Positions 4,295-38,855 of a DNA stretch of 64,000 bases are shown here, one piece after another. A model generated the notes under the pieces. It saw only the letters and a program-made list of their open reading frames with translations, had not been told where the DNA came from and searched no databases. Each line of letters begins with the position of its first letter. Position 1 is the stretch's first letter. The position numbers and the translations under genes are program-made. The stretch is from the NCBI RefSeq assembly GCF_002892835.1, contig NZ_PJMB01000004.1, forward strand, positions 1 through 64,000, in the 5' to 3' direction. The DNA comes from Arthrobacter sp. AFG7.2 (GTDB lineage Bacteria > Actinomycetota > Actinomycetes > Actinomycetales > Micrococcaceae).

Positions 4295-4630
4295 CTAGGC
4301 TGCGCAGGCGTCCTGCAGCGCCTGGACGGAGTCTGCCGGCACCTGGTCCCCGGACTCCGCAATCTGGCCGAGCGGCGTCGTAATTTCCGCCGGAACACCA
4401 GCGGTACGGGCGGCGGAAACGAGGCCCGCGAGCACCTGCTTGTCCTCAACGCTGACCAGGCCATCCTGAATGACGGTGCAGATCTGCCGTTTCACTTCCC
4501 CTGCAGCGGCAGTGGCAACCTTTGAGGCGGCGTCACTGGCCGCGTTGCCGGCGGCTTCCTCAACAGCGCCGCAGCCGGCGAGCAGCAGGAACAGGGGGGT
4601 AGCGCACAGGGCGGCAAGGCGGCGGTTCAT
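4295..4630 (-). CDS. Small lipoprotein, unknown function
   Basis: 111 residues with a classic lipoprotein signal: MNRRLAALCATPLFLLLAGC, lipobox LLAGC with Cys20 as the lipidated residue. The mature part is small and helical (VEEAAGNAASDAASKVATAAAGEVKRQ), then a C-terminal region with two more cysteines (ICTVIQDG and ALQDACAA) that could form a disulfide outside the membrane. No known domain was recognised. It stands alone between the acidic-protein gene and the alditol oxidase gene, all on the minus strand. Confidence 0.78.
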   Translation of the reverse strand: MNRRLAALCATPLFLLLAGCGAVEEAAGNAASDAASKVATAAAGEVKRQICTVIQDGLVSVEDKQVLAGLVSAARTAGVPAEITTPLGQIAESGDQVPADSVQALQDACAA

Positions 4631-4733
4631 CCCTCCAGCCTATCGGTCGCCACGCACGCATGAGGATAGGTCTTCACGCTGCCGAACCTGGCGGCCACCC
4701 TTTCCTGGATTACCTGTCGCGTTACGCTGTGGA

Positions 4734-5990
4734 TTACCGGGCGCTTGCCGCGCGAACTCCCAGGATGCTGTCCAGCAGTCCGTTCCGGAACTTTCCGTCG
4801 GGATCATGTGCGGAGGCCAGCGAGCGGAAGTCGGCGAAGCGCGGGTAGAGCGACTCCCAGTCGTGGCCTGCGGTGGAGAACAGCTTGCCCCAGTGCGGGC
4901 GGGCGCCGAAGGGCCGCAGCAGGTCCTCGAGCTCGGGCAGGACTGCTTCCACTTCTGCCTGCAGGGGCTTCCACGTGAAGTGCAGGGCCACGCTCTGCTG
5001 CCGGTAGAAGGGGCTGAGCCAGAACTCGTCCGCGGCACCGGTCCGGATTTCGGAGACGAAAAGCAGCGGAGCGAGCTTCCCTGCAAGGCTCCGGACGGCC
5101 TCAATTGCGGCCGGTCCGTGCTCCAGCGGCAGGATGAACTCGCTCTGAAGTTCCTCGCCCTTGCTGGGTGTGAACTCGTGGCGGAAATGGGGAAGGCGGT
5201 CCAGCCATTGACCGGGCTCGTCCAGTTGGAGTGTGCAGTTTTCTGCGGACATGTCAGGCAGCGGGTGGCGGGGGTCCGAGGCCGCGGTGGCGCCGAACAG
5301 TTCAGTGAGCGGCTGCTCAGTATCGAGTGCCTTGAGCCAGACCTGGCTGATGGAATCGCCGGCGTAGTCGGTGAAAAGGCTGACGCTGTAGGCGCTGGAT
5401 ACCAATTGCTGGAAGTTGCCCAGCGCCCGGTCCCATGGCAGGTTTTCGAGGACGCGCTGGCGCATCCTGAAGCCTGGCTGGACGGCGAGTTCCAGGCCCG
5501 TGACGATTCCCAGGGCGCCGAGCCCCACCACGCTTGCCAGGAATTCATCGCCGTCGGCACGGGAGAGGGAGACCAGTTCGCCGGAGGGCCGCACCAGGTT
5601 GATGGCCTGGACTGCTCCCGCCAGGGACTGGTTGTCCACGCCGGAGCCGTGCGTTCCGGTCTGGACGGCGCCGGCCACGGAGATGTGGGGCAGTGACGCC
5701 AAATTGTGGATGGCGACGCCGGACTGTTCCAGGGAGCGGCACAGTGTTCCGTAACTGACGCCGCCGCTGACGTGCACGCTCTGGCGGTCGGAGGCCAGTT
5801 CGATCGTCTGGGGCAGGGCGTCCAGGAGCACGTGGACGCCATCGGTATCGCCTACGCGGTTGAACGAGTGCCGCGACCCGAGGGCCTTGACCCTGCCCGC
5901 TCCCGCCACAATTGCAGCAAGCTCCTCCACCGATGCGGGCCGGCGGACCTCAGCCGAGGCATAGTCAAGGTTCCCTGCCCAGTTCTTCAT
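4734..5990 (-). CDS. FAD-dependent alditol/xylitol oxidase (AldO family)
   Basis: 418 residues, the normal size of AldO. N-terminal FAD_binding_4 domain with GSRHSFN (His45 region, the covalent flavin site of the family) and THGSG (ISVAGAVQTGTHGSG), followed by the ALO-type C-terminal domain ending in the conserved RPHWGK and YPRFADFRSLASAHDPDGKFRN. The family oxidises the terminal hydroxyl of xylitol, sorbitol or related polyols with O2, giving the aldose and H2O2; cytoplasmic. A TGTCAGCGCTAACA palindrome 42 bases upstream is a typical LacI/GalR-type operator, so polyol or sugar control is likely. Exact polyol preference cannot be read from sequence. Confidence 0.88.
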   Translation of the reverse strand: MKNWAGNLDYASAEVRRPASVEELAAIVAGAGRVKALGSRHSFNRVGDTDGVHVLLDALPQTIELASDRQSVHVSGGVSYGTLCRSLEQSGVAIHNLASLPHISVAGAVQTGTHGSGVDNQSLAGAVQAINLVRPSGELVSLSRADGDEFLASVVGLGALGIVTGLELAVQPGFRMRQRVLENLPWDRALGNFQQLVSSAYSVSLFTDYAGDSISQVWLKALDTEQPLTELFGATAASDPRHPLPDMSAENCTLQLDEPGQWLDRLPHFRHEFTPSKGEELQSEFILPLEHGPAAIEAVRSLAGKLAPLLFVSEIRTGAADEFWLSPFYRQQSVALHFTWKPLQAEVEAVLPELEDLLRPFGARPHWGKLFSTAGHDWESLYPRFADFRSLASAHDPDGKFRNGLLDSILGVRAASAR

Positions 5991-6031
5991 AAGTGTGGCT
6001 TTCCGGTTGAGGTGGAGATGGCTCCCTCAAC

Positions 6032-6045
6032 TGTCAGCGCTAACA
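6032..6045. promoter_or_regulatory. LacI/GalR-type operator before alditol oxidase gene
   Basis: TGTCAGCGCTAACA is a near-perfect palindrome of the TGTnAGCGCTnACA class recognised by many actinobacterial LacI-family repressors. It lies upstream of the minus-strand oxidase gene and differs from the ACAACGTT sites of the arabinan regulon, so a repressor encoded elsewhere is expected. Confidence 0.6.
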
Positions 6046-6120
6046 ACCCTGCTGTCAAGGCAGCTTTGATCCTCGGGACAAGGCGCGTCCCGCCTCGCAG
6101 CCGGCTGCTGGTGCCGCAAT

Positions 6121-6134
6121 CTATATCGTTGTAA
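6121..6134. promoter_or_regulatory. Arabinan-regulon-like operator before GH27 gene
   Basis: CTATATCGTTGTAA ends ten bases before the GH27 ATG and shares CGTTGTAA plus flanking A/T positions with the ACAACGTT operators at 14688, 14810, 20375 and 24076. It may overlap the -10 region (TATATC). It suggests the LacI repressor at 22981-24027 also controls this gene. Confidence 0.5.
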
Positions 6135-6143
6135 ATTGGCAAA

Positions 6144-7433
6144 ATGACACCTGCCGGCACCCCTCCCATGGGATGGAACAGTTGGGACTGCTACGGCACG
6201 TCCGTCACCGAGGAAGAGGTCATGGCGAACGCCTCGTTCATGGCCCGGCACCTGCTGCCTTCCGGATGGGACACCGTGGTGGTGGACATCCAGTGGTACG
6301 AACCGCAGGCCCGGGCCGGAGGCTACAACGACGGCGCGGAGCTCCAACTGGATGCCTATGGCCGCCAGCTCCCGGCACCCAACAGGTTTCCGTCGTCAGC
6401 CGGAGGGCTCGGCTTCAAACCGCTCGCTGACCGGATTCACGGCCTGGGCCTCAAATTCGGCGTGCACATCATGCGGGGCATTCCCCGGCAGGCGGTAAGG
6501 GACTGTCTCCCCGTGGAAGCCACTGACCTTACGGCAGCCGACGTAGCCGACACGTCCTCCGTTTGCGACTGGAACACTGACAACTTTGGCCTGGATCACA
6601 GCAACCCCGGCGCACAGGCCTATTACGACTCCCAACTGAGGCTTTTCGCCTCCTGGGGCGTGGACTTCATCAAGGCCGATGACATGTTGGGCCCCTACTT
6701 CGCAGAGGAGATTGCAGCCTACCGCCGGGCCATCAGCCGCTCGGGCCGGGACATGGTGCTGAGCCTCTCGCCGGGCCGGGCACTCTCGCTCGGCAGGCTG
6801 GAGCACCTGCGCGGGAACGCCCACATGTGGAGGGTGTCCGACGATCTCTGGGACGTGTGGGAGGACGTGGAGGCGCAGTTCACCCGGATGGCCCGCTGGG
6901 CGCCGCACCAGCGGCCCGGCAGCTGGGCCGATGCGGACATGCTTCCGGTGGGGCGGATCGCGTTGCGTGCTGAACGGGGCAGTGAGCGGCTGACCCGACT
7001 GAGCCTGGATGAGCAGAGGACCATGCTGTCCCTCTGGAGTATCTCCCGTTCTCCGCTCATGCTCGGCTGCGACCTCCCGTCCTCGCCTCCCGAAACGCTC
7101 GAGCTGCTGACCAACGGTGACCTCCTCGCGGCCCTGAAAGAGAGCCGGAACAACCGTGAACTGCTGCGCGAGGGGAACCTGGTGCTGTGGGCGGCGGAGA
7201 GTACGACGTCGGACGACAGGTTCGCAGCAGCCTTCAACACCGGGACGGCCGGCCAGGCCCGAACACTCTTGCTGGCGGACCTGGGACTGCCGGATGACGG
7301 CGGCTGGGTTGGCCGGGAGGCGTGGAGCGGCGCCGGCGTCGTGCTCACCGAAATAAACGATGCCCCAGCGCTCGTGGTGGACCCACCCGCACACGGCGTC
7401 CGGTTCTACCGCTTCTCACGCACCGCGGTTTAA
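6144..7433 (+). CDS. GH27 glycosidase (alpha-galactosidase / beta-L-arabinopyranosidase type), cytoplasmic
   Basis: 429 residues, no signal peptide. Begins TPPMGWNSWDCYGTSVTEEE, the GH27 hallmark, with FGVHIMRGIPRQA in place of the usual (H/Y)xG loop. The nucleophile Asp lies in VDFIKADDM (about 175) and the acid/base Asp in WRVSDDLWD. The C-terminal third is the beta-sandwich. GH27 contains alpha-galactosidases and beta-L-arabinopyranosidases; the KADD motif and the operator shared with the arabinan locus favour cleavage of arabinopyranose or galactose side chains released from plant arabinan/arabinogalactan. The 5' leader is very short and no clear ribosome site is visible, so a leaderless mRNA is possible. 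Confidence 0.85.
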   Translation: MTPAGTPPMGWNSWDCYGTSVTEEEVMANASFMARHLLPSGWDTVVVDIQWYEPQARAGGYNDGAELQLDAYGRQLPAPNRFPSSAGGLGFKPLADRIHGLGLKFGVHIMRGIPRQAVRDCLPVEATDLTAADVADTSSVCDWNTDNFGLDHSNPGAQAYYDSQLRLFASWGVDFIKADDMLGPYFAEEIAAYRRAISRSGRDMVLSLSPGRALSLGRLEHLRGNAHMWRVSDDLWDVWEDVEAQFTRMARWAPHQRPGSWADADMLPVGRIALRAERGSERLTRLSLDEQRTMLSLWSISRSPLMLGCDLPSSPPETLELLTNGDLLAALKESRNNRELLREGNLVLWAAESTTSDDRFAAAFNTGTAGQARTLLLADLGLPDDGGWVGREAWSGAGVVLTEINDAPALVVDPPAHGVRFYRFSRTAV

Positions 7434-34079: not shown

Positions 34080-35822
34080 TCAAATATCCGGCACGTAGGG
34101 GAGGGAGACCGGTCGAAGGCAAAGAGGGCCGCGTTCGGAATCACCCGGTACTCGTGGCGACGCGCTGAACCGCCGTGTTCCAGGGCGTACAGCGATGGCA
34201 TCTTCCAACGCAGCCCAACGTTGTTCGGCTGCCGCGGAAGCCTTCGGGTAGTGGTTGCCCGGGACAGACACCAAAGACCATTCCCGTCCAAGTCTTGTTG
34301 CAGAATTCGTGGAATGCAGGGTGGAACCGGGCACCACGACTTCATCGTCGACAGGCGCGATGACGACGACGCGCCCCGTAAAGTTACCGATGTGTTGTTC
34401 GCCGTCGTCAGGGCTTTCCGCCGTCAGTGCGAAACGATCCGCCGCCCACCGCCGGAACTCCGGGTCGTCGCTGTGGAGCTGAAGGTGGCTTTGGAGATCG
34501 AATATGGGAGACATGGCCACCACTTGGCTCGCGTGGACGCGCTCGGCAAGCTGCAGTCCCATCCACGCCCCGAAGCTGACGCCGAGAATAGAGACTATTG
34601 ACGTACCGTATGAGTCCATGATCTCAGCAACTGCCCCTGCCGTTTCCCGAATTGCGGCCGGCCAGTTGTGCCATGCGCGCTCTTGGAAAGCGGAACCAAA
34701 GCCTGCCGAGCCGGGATAGTTGATAATGAGCAGGTCAAAGCCTGCGTCAAGAACAGTTCGGTAGGTGCCGCCATATCTGAGGTCGTCGAGCTCGTGGCTG
34801 TCTGGGCCACCGTGAAGACACACCACAAGTTCCTGGCAGCGCGACTGTTGGCTACGCACATAAATACATGGCAGGCCAACCGGTGTGATGTGGCGGACCG
34901 ATAGGTCACTTCTTTCGGCGGCGATCCCGGCGATAACGCCGTGCGGGGTCTGCCAGGACGATCCGATTGCGAGGCCCGTGGACCGGATGACCGGGTCAAC
35001 GCCCGCTCCCATCGAAAAAACCTGCGACGTTCCGCAGTGGGTCCCGGGTATTCGAAAGTGCTCGTCAGCGGGATCCATCTGCAGCAGGCGTTGACCCTTT
35101 TCCGCGTGAATGCCATAAGCGGTGATGCGGGTGTCGGACGCGCCGAAAGAAATCAGGGACCAGCCGGTGGGGGCGGGAAGTTCTGCCTCGCATGTGCTGC
35201 GGATAATGGAGAACCAGGCACCGGACTTATTCGACCGCTTGATGGCAATGAATTCGGATGCGACGGCAACGATCGATCCGTCACCGTGCCTTACCCGTTT
35301 CCCGTTGCGGACCAAACTCCACCCGGACTCCGATTCGGCGGCCAGGGTCCCATCATTGAGTATGCATTTGGGTGCCCCGTGCGCGGATGTGGCGGGCCAC
35401 AAGCGACCGCACCGAATATCCATGAGCAGAGTTTCATCCGCTTCCTCCAGCGGCTCGAAAACCACGCACGGTGTCGCTTTTTCCGCATTCGGGATGAGGC
35501 CGGCAACGCGGTGTGTCTGACGGGGTGGGGATGGAAAATTACGTCCAAGGGGCTGACCCAGGCCCATTGCGGCAAGGGGAAACTGCCTGACAGTCAGGGT
35601 CGCAGAAGCGTGGCCGAGGTCATAGACGAAAGGGTGTCCTGGTACACAAAAAGGAGCTGACAGGCCGGACAGCGACACCGCTTCATAAGTGCCGGTGCCT
35701 GCCTGTCCCTGGCCTGATATCCGGTAGAGGCAACCATCGAGCTGACTGAATGTGAAGAGAGTTGGGCCCACAAGGGCGATTGGGACGAGGTGGTCCTCAT
35801 CGAAAAGGGACTTGACAGGCAT
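34080..35822 (-). CDS. S9 prolyl-oligopeptidase-like hydrolase of the peptide operon
   Basis: 580 residues from ATG 35822, three bases after the MFS stop; the open frame extends another 220 codons, but this is the shadow of the MFS gene. Residues 1-330 are propeller-like, 330-550 an alpha/beta hydrolase with CLHGGPDSHELDDLRYGG, INYPGSAGFGSAFQ, nucleophile Ser416 in LGVSFGAWMG, Asp492/493 in APVDDEVV and His524 in PGNHYP. The usual GxSxGG of S9 peptidases is relaxed to GVSFGA. No signal peptide, so cytoplasmic. Last gene of a lower-GC operon (peptide, TPR, MFS, this). A role in cutting the 26-residue peptide, which has Pro8, is inferred. Confidence 0.85.
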   Translation of the reverse strand: MPVKSLFDEDHLVPIALVGPTLFTFSQLDGCLYRISGQGQAGTGTYEAVSLSGLSAPFCVPGHPFVYDLGHASATLTVRQFPLAAMGLGQPLGRNFPSPPRQTHRVAGLIPNAEKATPCVVFEPLEEADETLLMDIRCGRLWPATSAHGAPKCILNDGTLAAESESGWSLVRNGKRVRHGDGSIVAVASEFIAIKRSNKSGAWFSIIRSTCEAELPAPTGWSLISFGASDTRITAYGIHAEKGQRLLQMDPADEHFRIPGTHCGTSQVFSMGAGVDPVIRSTGLAIGSSWQTPHGVIAGIAAERSDLSVRHITPVGLPCIYVRSQQSRCQELVVCLHGGPDSHELDDLRYGGTYRTVLDAGFDLLIINYPGSAGFGSAFQERAWHNWPAAIRETAGAVAEIMDSYGTSIVSILGVSFGAWMGLQLAERVHASQVVAMSPIFDLQSHLQLHSDDPEFRRWAADRFALTAESPDDGEQHIGNFTGRVVVIAPVDDEVVVPGSTLHSTNSATRLGREWSLVSVPGNHYPKASAAAEQRWAALEDAIAVRPGTRRFSASPRVPGDSERGPLCLRPVSLPYVPDI

Positions 35823-35824
35823 GA

Positions 35825-37015
35825 TTAGGCTGCCTTCACCATCGATCCGCTGCGGACACTGCGCAGAAGCATGGGCAGAAGCACGGCGTTGAACAGTGTG
35901 ATGGCGCCGGCAGTGAGGAGCAGTCCCTCCGGACCCGCGTTGAGCCAAAGAGGGGCGCCGAGTACGCCACCCAGCGTATCTCCGACCAGGAACGCAGTTT
36001 GCGAGATCCCGAAAACAAAACCTGTTGCTCCCGCCGGGACGACAGCGTACTGGATCGTTTCCTCTGCTGCGATCGCAAGCGAAACAAAAGCCGCCCGTAC
36101 GATGAAGATGACCGCTATCCACGGAGCTCCCAGCCCCAAAGCCAGCGCAGCAGCCAGCGTAATGACCCCGGTAAGAACCTCGGACACAGCAAACAGCGCG
36201 AATGGCCGGCTGTTGGTGCTGTAGCGGGAGAAGATCCAGGTGGCGCCGATTTGGGCGACACTCATAAGCGCCATGATCAAGGCTGCCTGTGCGGCAGTGG
36301 CGCCGCCGTTGGTCAAAATCAAAGGTAGATACGGTGCCACGAGACTGACATAGAAGCCCGAGAGCAAGCCGATGGCTGCCAGCTTCACGGCTAAGACTCT
36401 GGAACGCCGCCGATCGGCGCCACAGTCCGTACCTGCCGGCACGGACTGTGGCAGGCTGCGGGTTGGGGAATTCGGCGAGAGGAGGACCCACACGAACGCT
36501 GCTGCCACAAGTGCGGGGGCGATCAGCAAAGCTGTCTTCGCCCCGTCCGCCTGCGTTGCCGAAAGCGCGAAGATGGAGGCAGCGCCGACTGTGCCCAGCA
36601 GGAGGCCAGTCTGGTTCCCGAGGTTCCGGGATCCGACAATTTTGGGGATTTCATCATCGGAGGCTATGGATCGCACCCATGGCCTGATTGCTACGAGGAC
36701 CAGGGACGCCCCAGCTCCTGCAACGCCGGAGAATATGATCACCGGAATAACATCCGTCAACAGTCGGCCGGCAATTCCAATGGCATATAAGAGCGTTCCC
36801 AGACGAACTGCGTTAAGACCCCCAAAGCGATCTGCAAAAGCACCCCAAGCGAAGGAAAAACCACCCACAACCGCCATGACGGCATAGCCAATGCCGAATG
36901 CCACTAACGCATTTAGCTGCTCGAAATAGAGAGGTTGAGCAACTTTTGACACCCACATTCCACCGGCAAATAGGACGGTGAAAACTCCGAGTTGCCCACG
37001 CAGTCCAAGCCTCAT
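35825..37015 (-). CDS. MFS transporter, probable exporter of the peptide operon
   Basis: 396 residues, 12 membrane helices. Family motif after TM2: WGAFADRFGGLNAVRLGT; central loop between halves contains SPTRSLPQSVPAGTDCGADRRRSRV. No lipobox or fusion. It overlaps the TPR gene by four bases (ATGA) and precedes the S9 hydrolase gene, so it is co-translated in the operon. Substrate is unknown; exporting the peptide or a processed form is an inference from context. An intragenic 12-bp stem-loop lies in the loop-coding part. Confidence 0.85.
   Translation of the reverse strand: MRLGLRGQLGVFTVLFAGGMWVSKVAQPLYFEQLNALVAFGIGYAVMAVVGGFSFAWGAFADRFGGLNAVRLGTLLYAIGIAGRLLTDVIPVIIFSGVAGAGASLVLVAIRPWVRSIASDDEIPKIVGSRNLGNQTGLLLGTVGAASIFALSATQADGAKTALLIAPALVAAAFVWVLLSPNSPTRSLPQSVPAGTDCGADRRRSRVLAVKLAAIGLLSGFYVSLVAPYLPLILTNGGATAAQAALIMALMSVAQIGATWIFSRYSTNSRPFALFAVSEVLTGVITLAAALALGLGAPWIAVIFIVRAAFVSLAIAAEETIQYAVVPAGATGFVFGISQTAFLVGDTLGGVLGAPLWLNAGPEGLLLTAGAITLFNAVLLPMLLRSVRSGSMVKAA
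36419..36452. repeat. Intragenic 12-bp stem-loop in the MFS gene
   Basis: GCCACAGTCCGT (36419-36430) is perfectly complementary to ACGGACTGTGGC (36441-36452) around a ten-base loop. It encodes part of the central hydrophilic loop of the transporter. Such a perfect stem in coding sequence is unusual and may be a small inserted repeat or an RNA control element. Confidence 0.6.
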
Positions 37016-38544
37016 ACCTGCATGTCCGAAAGTGCTTTACGGTTTGCGATGAGGACCTGCGAGTCGGGGAATAACGCCAGTCCTGCTTCTACTTGTTCCA
37101 ATGCTTCAGCGCAACGGCCCTGCCGTACTGAAATCTCTGCTCCGAGGGATGCGCGGCGCTCGGCATCTTCTTTCAGCAGAGCACTGTGGATCCAGCCGGC
37201 AGTGTGATCCCTGGCTTCATCGAGGCGCTCCGCAAGGATAAGGCTGTACACCACATTGGTGATGTGCGTATAGGAACCGGGATCGAGCGCAGCGGCCCGT
37301 GCATGGGCCTCCGCTGCTGCCCCGTGTGAATCGAGTTCCCCTTCGTATACCCCGATCATGCCCCACGCCGAGGCCAGGTTGTCATCCAGGTCAACTGCTT
37401 CTCTGCACGCACTCAGTGCGGCACCAAAGTTACCGGCTGACGCATGGCATTTTGCTGCTTCCAAGTGGTATTCGGGCATGTAGGGGTCGACGTCCAGGAG
37501 CTCAGTGTAGGTTGCAATGGCAGCAGTCAAGTTCCCGGTTTGCTTGTAGCACTGAGCAAGGTTGTAGATGAGCACGGACCGGTGAATTGCCACTTTTTCG
37601 CCGGTCTGCGTGAGTCTTTTGATGCCCCAGCGAAGGAGTCGGATGGCCTCGTCTACTTGGCCGCGACGGAAGAGTATCAGTGCATAGCCGTTCCTGTTGA
37701 AGACCTCGTCAAAGACGACGCGGTCGTCCGAGCGCTGCTGGGCATCCAGCTGCTGGACCAAGGCATAGGCCTCGTTCAGCAACTCTTCGCTGCGATCCAG
37801 GCTTCGGAGACCGTCCGGGTGGTGGCGGGCATACAGCATGGCTTTTCCGTAAAGGGCCCGTATTGCGTCGAGGGGATCTTCGGACGTGCTCCAGCGGTCA
37901 TAGTAATACTCGGCCTGGACTGTCTCATCCACCATGGCATGGGCAATGGCCATGAGGTTCCACACCCTGGGTGACTGTTCAACGTCCTGCAGCAGATGTC
38001 CGAGATTCAAGGCTGTCCATGCATCTCCCGAGTTGACGTAGTCGAAGGCCGCGGAGACGATGTGTCCGGCGTGGTCCTTTCTCGAGGACGCCGGAAGCAT
38101 TGCCAGCAAGGCCTGTTCCTCGGGCATGAAGCGCGGGCCGGACGCATTGGCATCGCTGTCGAAACGGAGTTGGACTGACCAGCCGCCCAGGCGGACTGCT
38201 GCGTCCAGGAATTCACGGCTCGGCCGGTCCAAAGCCCCGGCGTCTGCCACCTGGATATCTATGGGACCAAAATTTTCGCGGATGTACTTGGCAATTTTGA
38301 TATAGCTTCGTCGGGCCCGCTGATGCTGGAAGAACCGGATCTGCTCGTTGGACGTCGCAGCATCAGTAAGGCTGGTGGTGCCTGCCCGCACTTTGCCGGC
38401 CAGTTTGGTATCCAAGGGGTAAAGAAGCCGAAGGCTCAGGGACAGGTCGTTGGGGTGCTCATTCGGGGTCAGGTTGAAATGTTGCAGAACGGTTTTTATA
38501 ACACCGAATGAGAGTGGGTGGACTGGGGCTTTAACGCAGATCAA
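37012..38544 (-). CDS. TPR protein of the peptide operon (degenerate STAND-like N-terminus)
   Basis: 510 residues from a TTG with AAGGA five bases upstream. Residues ~1-150 are an unusual domain; IQVADAGALDRPSREFLDAAVRLGGWSVQLRF resembles the Walker B-to-sensor region of STAND ATPases, but no Walker A is visible. Residues ~150-500 are helical repeats: SVLIYNLAQCYKQTGNLTAAIATYTELLDVDP, EYHLEAAKCHASAGNFGAALSACREAVDLDD, TPR consensus. No DNA-binding domain is seen. TPR proteins bind peptides in Rap/RRNPP systems, and this one follows a 26-residue peptide gene directly; that parallel is an inference. Confidence 0.85.
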   Translation of the reverse strand: MICVKAPVHPLSFGVIKTVLQHFNLTPNEHPNDLSLSLRLLYPLDTKLAGKVRAGTTSLTDAATSNEQIRFFQHQRARRSYIKIAKYIRENFGPIDIQVADAGALDRPSREFLDAAVRLGGWSVQLRFDSDANASGPRFMPEEQALLAMLPASSRKDHAGHIVSAAFDYVNSGDAWTALNLGHLLQDVEQSPRVWNLMAIAHAMVDETVQAEYYYDRWSTSEDPLDAIRALYGKAMLYARHHPDGLRSLDRSEELLNEAYALVQQLDAQQRSDDRVVFDEVFNRNGYALILFRRGQVDEAIRLLRWGIKRLTQTGEKVAIHRSVLIYNLAQCYKQTGNLTAAIATYTELLDVDPYMPEYHLEAAKCHASAGNFGAALSACREAVDLDDNLASAWGMIGVYEGELDSHGAAAEAHARAAALDPGSYTHITNVVYSLILAERLDEARDHTAGWIHSALLKEDAERRASLGAEISVRQGRCAEALEQVEAGLALFPDSQVLIANRKALSDMQV

Positions 38545-38567
38545 ACGGATCCTTAATGTAGCCGAAG

Positions 38568-38598
38568 CAGGGGTGCCGATCCGTGACCGGCACCCCTG
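38568..38598 (-). other. Stem-loop between peptide gene and TPR gene
   Basis: 11-bp perfect stem CAGGGGTGCCG (38598-38588 on the minus strand) with CGGCACCCCTG (38578-38568), nine-base loop, no U tract after it. It lies nine bases after the peptide stop. In peptide operons such a structure commonly lets most transcripts end or be stabilised there, giving excess precursor over the rest. Confidence 0.75.
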
Positions 38599-38606
38599 AA
38601 ACGGAA

Positions 38607-38687
38607 CTAGATAGTGGTCGCTTTACCGCCGTAAAGAACGGCGAAATCGATCTTCTGTTCCTTCGGCTTTTCGATCTTGAGCTGCAT
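38607..38687 (-). CDS. 26-residue peptide, candidate precursor or signal peptide
   Basis: ATG 38687, TAG 38609-38607; GGGGA six bases before ATG. The peptide starts MQLKIEKPKEQ (basic/acidic, with Pro8) and ends IDFAVLYGGKATTI. It has no signal peptide or Cys. A GG pair at 20-21 leaves a C-terminal KATTI pentapeptide, reminiscent of GG-leader cleavage or of Phr-type pentapeptides. Alternatively the core begins after Pro8 if the S9 hydrolase cuts there. Codons look real: AT-rich surroundings but a GC-biased third position. It matches no RiPP family I know. The first gene of the operon with TPR, MFS and S9 genes. Confidence 0.7.
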   Translation of the reverse strand: MQLKIEKPKEQKIDFAVLYGGKATTI

Positions 38688-38738
38688 TAATTTCCCCAAT
38701 CAATTAATGAGAACAGCCTCGCGCCGCCCTCCATGAGG

Positions 38739-38766
38739 AAAGTAACACAACTTTATTTACCGGCAA
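38739..38766 (-). promoter_or_regulatory. Possible promoter of the peptide operon
   Basis: Minus strand TTGCCG (38766-38761), 16-base spacer, TACTTT (38744-38739), in an AT-rich stretch 50-80 bases before the peptide ATG. A weak match to consensus; other hexamers are possible. Confidence 0.3.
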
Positions 38767-38855
38767 AGTCATATAACGGAATGGTCCTGTCAGGGCGCGT
38801 CGCAGTGTCCCGTAATACGCGCTGCTGCTGCGCCAGCCGGTGCGAGTCAACCGGT

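Follow-up and report, generated by a model that had tools for sequence, protein, structure and literature searches.

In the window analysed here, the 64,000 nucleotides (nt) at the start of contig NZ_PJMB01000004.1 from Arthrobacter sp. AFG7.2, a minus-strand operon opens with a gene for a 26-residue peptide, followed by genes for a tetratricopeptide repeat (TPR) protein, a major facilitator superfamily (MFS) transporter and an S9-like hydrolase (Table 1). The peptide gene is under strong coding selection. Judging from sequence comparison, it is part of an apparently undescribed family of small-peptide operons, which pairs a peptide of 20-33 residues with one type of TPR protein in members of four phyla, on plasmids as well as on chromosomes. 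The simplest reading, to which we give about an even chance of being correct, is an operon like those for ribosomally synthesized and post-translationally modified peptides (RiPPs), with a peptide precursor, the TPR protein as its constant partner, trimming by the S9-like hydrolase and export by the MFS protein, because a short conserved precursor, a hairpin, a dedicated partner, a peptidase and an exporter occur together.

Table 1. Features of the operon in the window, and small peptides beside TPR genes on the named replicons
Feature	Position (nt)	Strand	Sequence or basis
Peptide gene, 26 residues	38687-38607	-	MQLKIEKPKEQKIDFAVLYGGKATTI; kept in three congeners with mostly synonymous change; relatives beside homologous TPR genes
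Putative promoter region	38735..38772	-	Conserved block 5' of the peptide gene; likeness by eye to L002, L003 and L004
Stem-loop, attenuator-like, between peptide and TPR genes	38598-38568	-	Predicted 14-pair stem; minimum free energy (MFE) -32.2, z -5.3 against shuffles
TPR protein, 510 aa	38544-37012, assuming a TTG start at 38544	-	Pfam TPR matches
MFS transporter, 396 aa, probable exporter	37015-35825	-	PF07690, E 2.2e-13
S9-like alpha/beta hydrolase, 580 aa, probable maturation peptidase	35822-34080	-	PF00326, E 4.3e-5, just above the cut-off
Klebsiella peptide			MKMIKRKPAAKRVDFSVMYNR
Pantoea agglomerans peptide			MKMIKRKPSAKRVDFSVMYGGTN
Pantoea soli peptide			MKMIKRAPKAKRVDFSVMYAGK
Streptobacillus peptide			MKKLIKKKIELKKVNFSVMYCYKDGCLAF
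Bacillus badius peptide			MKKVKVKATPVKAANAVVYSGN
Priestia peptide			MKTVKITKKVVKASNAVMYSGN
Listeria peptide			MEKIMKPVPTRKTKSIGYNG
Exiguobacterium peptide			MKTVVIKKNSVRAKVVLGYN, three times
Rhizobium peptide			MKKKIAETNTVIRTTTPYTGTV
Mesorhizobium peptide			MKKKIAETTTVIRTTTPYTGTV
Agrobacterium peptide			MKKKVALSKASIRTTTPYTGTV
Vibrio peptide			MKKSMLKKLPKLNKKVRTTTPYQAA
Streptomyces NBC_00503 peptide			MKVKVSEKQDTVRTTTSYVAG
Nonomuraea peptide			MKKLVVHKPGTVKPTAGAAPRHSS
Acinetobacter peptide, between TPR and MFS genes		opposite	MKLLVSSPAIVKVSYKTAYALKVEA

The peptide of the window has a basic leader, Tyr19 and the tail GGKATTI, and its gene has a ribosome site of its own (GGGGAAA, 38697-38691). 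An earlier note on this DNA had taken the tiny gene to be real, and it is not a chance reading frame, because the peptide was found again in three congeners and relatives of it are encoded next to homologous TPR genes at other loci. The note's stem-loop behind the gene was also recovered, with a predicted stem of 14 pairs in place of 11 bp; the gene order and the four-base overlap of the TPR and MFS genes stood, whereas the gap between the MFS and S9 genes is 2 bases and not three. Scanning genome contigs yielded three relatives of the TPR gene, in Arthrobacter sp. ISL-48 (L002), in Pseudarthrobacter polychromogenes (L003) and in Arthrobacter sp. MA-N2 (L004). The peptide is identical in L002, differs by one residue in L003 and reads MQLTIDKPKEQKIDFAVLYGGKSVF in L004. 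Residues 1-22 hardly vary in Arthrobacter, and L004 has a different tail; the order peptide-TPR-MFS-S9 is retained in L002 and L004. Between the window and L002, the peptide gene has changed at 6 of 16 synonymous sites and at 0 of 62 non-synonymous sites, and over the first 22 codons the comparison with L004 gave 5 of 12.7 and 2 of 53.3, respectively.

The pairing recurs far from Arthrobacter. With the window TPR protein as the query, tblastn of a plasmid collection matched 19 records, including Acinetobacter, Klebsiella, Pantoea, Streptobacillus, Bacillus, Listeria and Priestia, and further searches added Exiguobacterium, rhizobia, Agrobacterium, Vibrio and another Streptomyces, plus many matches to the general repeats only. 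We examined 17 regions, chosen for a match beyond the general repeats or for a new genus (Streptomyces NBC_01450 and the Nostoc-type matches stand outside this set). Fifteen of them are distinct operons; the other two are L205, in which the Acinetobacter operon was recorded again, and L202, a broken Acinetobacter copy, in which no peptide was found. A peptide gene lies beside the TPR gene in all 15 distinct operons, the peptides being chosen by eye among short open reading frames (ORFs) with a ribosome site. Tyr stands 1-9 residues before the C-terminus in 14 of them and His in the Nonomuraea peptide, and what the peptides have in common is a basic leader and, in most of them, Tyr (in some types His) ahead of a short tail. 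Throughout the annotated plasmid stretches examined, these small genes are unannotated.

Two cleavage sites had been proposed for the window peptide. For Gly-Gly at residues 20-21, no support was found as a leader site in general: across the peptides of Arthrobacter and the named replicons, GG follows Tyr only in Arthrobacter and Pantoea agglomerans, and other endings are YNR, YAGK, YSGN, YNG, YTGTV and YQAA. Pro8, the candidate S9 site, is shared by the peptides of Arthrobacter, of Klebsiella and of the two Pantoea species, whose operons all have this S9 homologue; it is also present in Acinetobacter, with no S9 homologue in the stretch examined, and no Pro occurs in the Streptomyces NBC_00503 peptide, which has another prolyl oligopeptidase in its operon. 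Separately, Exiguobacterium alkaliphilum pE73 carries three tandem identical 20-residue peptide genes before the TPR gene (L196, about 5636-5931); genes for ThiF, for a protein of 84 residues and for an O-methyltransferase run divergently from it. In Vibrio coralliilyticus (L203), the TPR protein is apparently encoded by two overlapping annotated ORFs (4628-5899 and 5875-6897), which may be a split gene or two subunits.

On actinobacterial chromosomes, an initial TPR profile had matches in 20 of 394 genomes of the class (at least one weak). A broader profile matched 79 of 150 genomes of the actinobacterial family f24 at E <= 1e-20 (eight weak) and 71 of 150 at E <= 1e-100; the other whole-genome samples gave relatives in 7 of 297 (order; five weak) and 4 of 296 (phylum). 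We examined 80 actinobacterial stretches, and the 67 with a TPR score > 500 form the counted set. Their peptides fall into types: type I (MKKIKIRKAGPVRLTAAACSIYKNPN and like, 13 loci), type II (MKKIIVRKPGTVKLTGTSSVIHKG and like, 23 loci by pattern) and type III (MKKVIVHKPGTVALSGAASPKHVG and like, 13 loci by pattern), with a fourth type (MRKMTVRRKGALRLLSGARRLWIEWCW and like) in four loci, L175-L178, among the 13 with a lower TPR score. All 13 type I peptides have Tyr plus a variable tail of 4-11 residues; the leader that they share is partly an effect of the search pattern. A strict motif placed a peptide at most 1.8 kb upstream of the TPR gene in 52 of the 67 loci, against 0 of 515 for the remaining genes of 150 residues or more at these loci; the motif was derived from these loci, so the count is not blind, and the control uses the same motif. 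Together with the named operons, this count bears out the earlier note, which had asked whether homologous operons keep the small ORF. A looser, after-the-fact reading adds 12 loci (64 of 67, with L078, L164 and L173 peptide-less), and a pattern on the first six residues alone found the peptide in 61.

Coding selection, which the earlier note had proposed as the other check on the peptide, was equally evident in this set. For 53 loci chosen by the first six residues, the proportions of changed synonymous (pS) and non-synonymous (pN) sites from codon 7 on were 0.485 and 0.145 (361 non-independent pairs). By type, pS and pN were 0.535 and 0.124 (II), 0.424 and 0.159 (III) and 0.430 and 0.116 (I, first 18 codons), the pN values being biased downwards because the loci were chosen by motif.

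Folding covered the named-replicon, Arthrobacter and type I loci, with types II and III outside. A stem-loop was predicted 3' of the peptide stop codon in all 15 folded loci in which the peptide and TPR genes are same-strand neighbours (z -2.3 to -7.4; close relatives are included, namely three Arthrobacter and two rhizobia). The same was true of seven of the eight type I loci folded (z -2.3 to -4.6), the exception being L077 (z -0.8). The Acinetobacter, Agrobacterium and Nonomuraea stretches fold with an MFE of -20.5, -28.8 and -36.6 (no shuffles).

An exporter gene is in the same gene run as the TPR gene in 12 of the 15 named operons (11 MFS and one LysE); the Nonomuraea stretch is unannotated and was checked with a guessed gene end. 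The MFS gene lies two genes further on in B. badius and Priestia, the Streptobacillus plasmid, a small one, has ABC transporter genes about 5 kb off, and no exporter was found beside the Mesorhizobium TPR gene. Partners of tailoring type occur in some loci: ThiF, O-methyltransferase, ATP-grasp, flavin reductase and old yellow enzyme. On the plasmid of Streptomyces sp. NBC_00503 (L200:7107-8945), MFS is fused to a flavin reductase domain and is followed by a prolyl oligopeptidase and an ATP-grasp protein.

Between the peptide and the TPR gene, which are 1.4-1.7 kb apart, each of the 13 type I loci (for instance L072, L073, L077, L129, L161 and L165) has a frame that carries HExFHALAGRRLG or a near variant of it. 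Eleven of these frames form one blast cluster of membrane proteins, and the two scanned matched no Pfam or NCBIfam family; the N-terminal stretch is possibly like PqqD or a RiPP recognition element. Behind the type I TPR gene, blast clusters contain an old yellow enzyme in six loci and a flavin reductase in three, with one of each (L072 and L161) checked against Pfam. The type II peptide-TPR pair occupies a conserved chromosomal place (loci such as L083, L087 and L130-L142), and near its TPR gene, on the opposite strand, is a gene resembling prolyl oligopeptidase by eye, the blast cluster of which covers 18 loci.

The TPR protein consists of a short N-terminal domain and then TPR repeats with an FNRNG motif. 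In a 12-row alignment FNRNG (282-286), S58, T60 and R70 (window numbering) are invariant, and a degenerate F-x-x-N-G motif was found in 63 of 70 actinobacterial TPR proteins. The Walker A motif expected of a STAND or AAA ATPase was found in 0 of these 70 (first 350 residues) and in 0 of the 12 rows; weak AAA_16 matches in the family were below the cut-off (E 0.0018 and 6.6e-4). A fold search with the model of the TPR protein returned general TPR superhelices among the best 50 of 1621 matches. The S9-like hydrolase has an alpha/beta hydrolase domain with the predicted Peptidase S9 triad, Ser416, Asp493 and His524, kept in six of seven aligned rows, the window included, and the columns are kept in Arthrobacter, Klebsiella and Pantoea; the seventh row, the L200 prolyl oligopeptidase, has Arg in the His column with GH nearby. 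In 395 family genomes, the S9 profile matched 55 at E <= 1e-6, and in all but the window genome and G052 the match covers only part of the catalytic domain, as it would for general S9 peptidases.

From the genes, their conservation, the coding selection, the hairpins and the partner genes, we infer a course of binding, modification, cleavage and export, and the nature of the product, as follows. The 26-residue ORF is a ribosomal peptide gene under coding selection, as a RiPP precursor gene in the broad sense would be, and its product would comprise a basic N-terminal leader, a short segment with the conserved Tyr and a C-terminal tail. The hairpin behind it probably allows more precursor to be made than partner proteins. 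The TPR protein would bind the precursor and present or modify it, the S9-like peptidase may cut off the leader or trim the product, and the MFS protein may carry the small mature product out. Other lineages combine the peptide-TPR pair with a LysE exporter and with redox, methyl-transfer, ThiF, ATP-grasp or membrane-protease-like partners. The earlier note's idea of a peptide system comprising an exporter and a peptidase finds support as an interpretation. More tentatively, the operons may form a new cross-phylum class of ribosomal peptides, in which the TPR protein itself modifies or presents the core at the conserved Tyr (His in some types), and which has spread on plasmids among Actinomycetota, Pseudomonadota, Bacillota and Fusobacteriota and occurs in about half of the sampled genomes of one large actinobacterial family.

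Several results weigh against the RiPP-like reading. No modifying enzyme is common to all loci, and none was recognised in the minimal clusters. The tails of types II and III are conserved, which a variable core would not be. The likeness of the type I membrane protein to a RiPP recognition element was read from its motif and from its best PDB profile match, TfuB1 of a lasso-peptide system, which was not significant (E 0.17). An ORF rich in transmembrane segments lies directly behind the TPR gene in only five of the 67 actinobacterial loci (L087 also has a 268-residue MFS fragment), which counts against export as a universal part. The structural models are modest: the TPR protein has a mean predicted local distance difference test (pLDDT) score of 70, with a superhelix after a poorly predicted N-terminal part, and the S9 model (pLDDT 55) was too poor for a fold search.

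Peptide signalling, in which the unmodified peptide would be exported, trimmed, taken up again and sensed by the TPR protein, is the next reading to consider, and we regard it as plausible but less likely. Rap-type TPR receptors, which have no DNA-binding domain, sense linear peptides, and the pairing of a TPR protein with a short peptide, the exporter and peptidase in the operon and the invariant FNRNG in the TPR region would all suit such a receptor. Genes for RNPP-family regulators are indeed located near the Priestia and Exiguobacterium operons (PF18768, E 2e-20 and 1.7e-43; L195:4607-5491 and L196:2586-3476). However, these are separate proteins, and neither RNPP_C (PF18768) nor a helix-turn-helix (HTH) domain was among the families shown for the TPR proteins of the window, of two actinobacterial loci and of L200. 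Inspection by eye showed no secretion signal in the peptides, the leader of which is basic, and enzymes of tailoring type recur in several loci.

It is improbable that the peptide is itself active or toxic, as in a bacteriocin-like or toxin-antitoxin system, with the TPR protein as a neutraliser or immunity partner. The peptides are by eye not hydrophobic toxins, an intracellular toxin would need no exporter, and the hairpin and gene order resemble a precursor plus its machinery, although such a pair might look like this one, with a small basic peptide beside a single dedicated protein, its rarity in the genus and its location on plasmids elsewhere. The only match in PADLOC-DB was a weak one, to the repeats of a single TPR protein (E 6.2e-4). 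A cis-acting leader that attenuates the TPR operon at the hairpin, as a short ORF and a stem-loop just ahead of the next gene might suggest, was rejected as very improbable because of the tandem peptide copies in Exiguobacterium, the Acinetobacter peptide on the opposite strand with a hairpin of its own and the spacing in all type I loci; moreover, residues are conserved, beyond mere position.

Among known systems, RiPP operons are alike in having a short precursor gene first, a stem-loop behind it, a leader and a tail, and an exporter and a peptidase, with tandem precursors in one case here. The window operon differs from them in having no known RiPP modifying enzyme and, as the constant partner, a TPR protein. 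Class-defining RiPP maturases include LanM/LanB, YcaO, radical SAM and MNIO enzymes, among others. None was found in the window operon with Pfam and NCBIfam, in which only TPR, MFS and S9 or alpha/beta hydrolase families were above the cut-off, in agreement with the earlier note, which had recognised no RiPP modifying enzyme. The window peptide has no family in NCBIfam or Pfam, and the TPR, MFS and S9 proteins matched general families only in NCBIfam, Pfam and PADLOC-DB. The RRNPP peptide receptors (Rap, PlcR and NprR) likewise pair a TPR protein with a small peptide gene, but they are set apart from the present family by the absence of an RNPP_C or HTH match among the families shown, by the lack of a secretion signal by eye and by the tailoring-type partners described above. 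FxSxx-COOH systems, compared here by description, also place a TPR protein in an actinobacterial peptide system, but with a radical SAM maturase, and NCBIfam listed no such family for the proteins scanned here. Some RiPP clusters use an MFS exporter. One of them, the biphenomycin cluster, resembles the window operon in that its precursor, with a short C-terminal core, is followed by genes for an MFS protein and for BipC, which was at first annotated as TPR but is described as an arginase of the UPF0489 superfamily (PMC12707348). It differs in this protein, and also in that no gene of the MNIO, radical SAM or TldD-like kind is among the four of the window. BipC and PbsE, both linked to TPR in print but described as arginase-like, were set aside as counterparts of the TPR protein. 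Ammosamide AmmC2 is likewise a TPR protein, one to which no role has been assigned.

No description of the peptide-TPR operon was found in the open PubMed Central literature, the letters of the peptides included; most subscription papers lie outside it, so that novelty is unproven. If the RiPP-like reading is true, an entire class of such peptide systems has escaped notice, because the precursor genes are too short for annotation and the TPR protein is given no name beyond 'tetratricopeptide repeat protein' or 'hypothetical protein'. Since the TPR family occurs in nearly half of the sampled f24 genomes at the stricter threshold, and on plasmids of other phyla, the systems are open to genome mining. 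The form with S9 and MFS genes is a four-gene unit of < 5 kb, and its product and function are therefore directly testable.

Counterparts of the whole window operon also occur outside the Actinomycetota. Plasmids of Klebsiella, P. agglomerans and P. soli have the order peptide-TPR-MFS-S9 or alpha/beta hydrolase. The window and Klebsiella MFS proteins are homologous, with 26% identity across most of their length (E 5e-21 in a two-sequence comparison), and so are the S9 proteins, with 28% identity over 149 residues (E 6e-9). A tree of 32 TPR proteins places the Arthrobacter rows with Acinetobacter (support 98/99), within a larger group that also contains Klebsiella, Pantoea, Streptobacillus and Listeria (100/99) and is separate from the rows of actinobacterial chromosomes; the long Listeria row is of unsure placement, and 25 of the 32 rows deviate in letter make-up from the alignment. 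This grouping, together with the same operon in Enterobacterales, indicates transfer between phyla. E. coli genomes held no near match to the DNA of the Klebsiella operon, phage records no match, and viral contigs 43 pattern matches, none of them a relative.

Within the genus, relatives of the TPR gene were found in 5 of 206 genomes (one weak), and the system is therefore rare there. The operon is flanked by a UvrA-like gene and a MOSC gene in the window and in L003, and by other neighbours in L002 and L004. (These two names, given by eye, and those of SARP and prolyl oligopeptidase for chromosomal neighbours are tentative.) In a survey of the insertion site, the MOSC gene was found in 57 of 61 genus genomes searched and 30 loci were obtained, the window's own included. 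Among the 29 others, the two flanking genes are 2-92 nt apart, that is, an empty site, in seven and 0.5-1.1 kb apart in ten, and 12 lack the UvrA-like end inside the short stretch available. As the earlier note had observed, the operon is less GC-rich than its surroundings (59.2% for 34080-38687 against 64.6% across the remainder of the window, with 62.4% as the lowest of 251 same-size windows elsewhere in the 64,000 nt). Because of this lower GC and the empty sites, the operon was most likely gained between the UvrA-like and MOSC genes, in line with the recent gain that the earlier note had suspected. At the same site in P. polychromogenes, the operon (L003, 7900-12170) is decaying, with a TPR frame without a start and a shortened MFS gene, and its peptide gene is intact.

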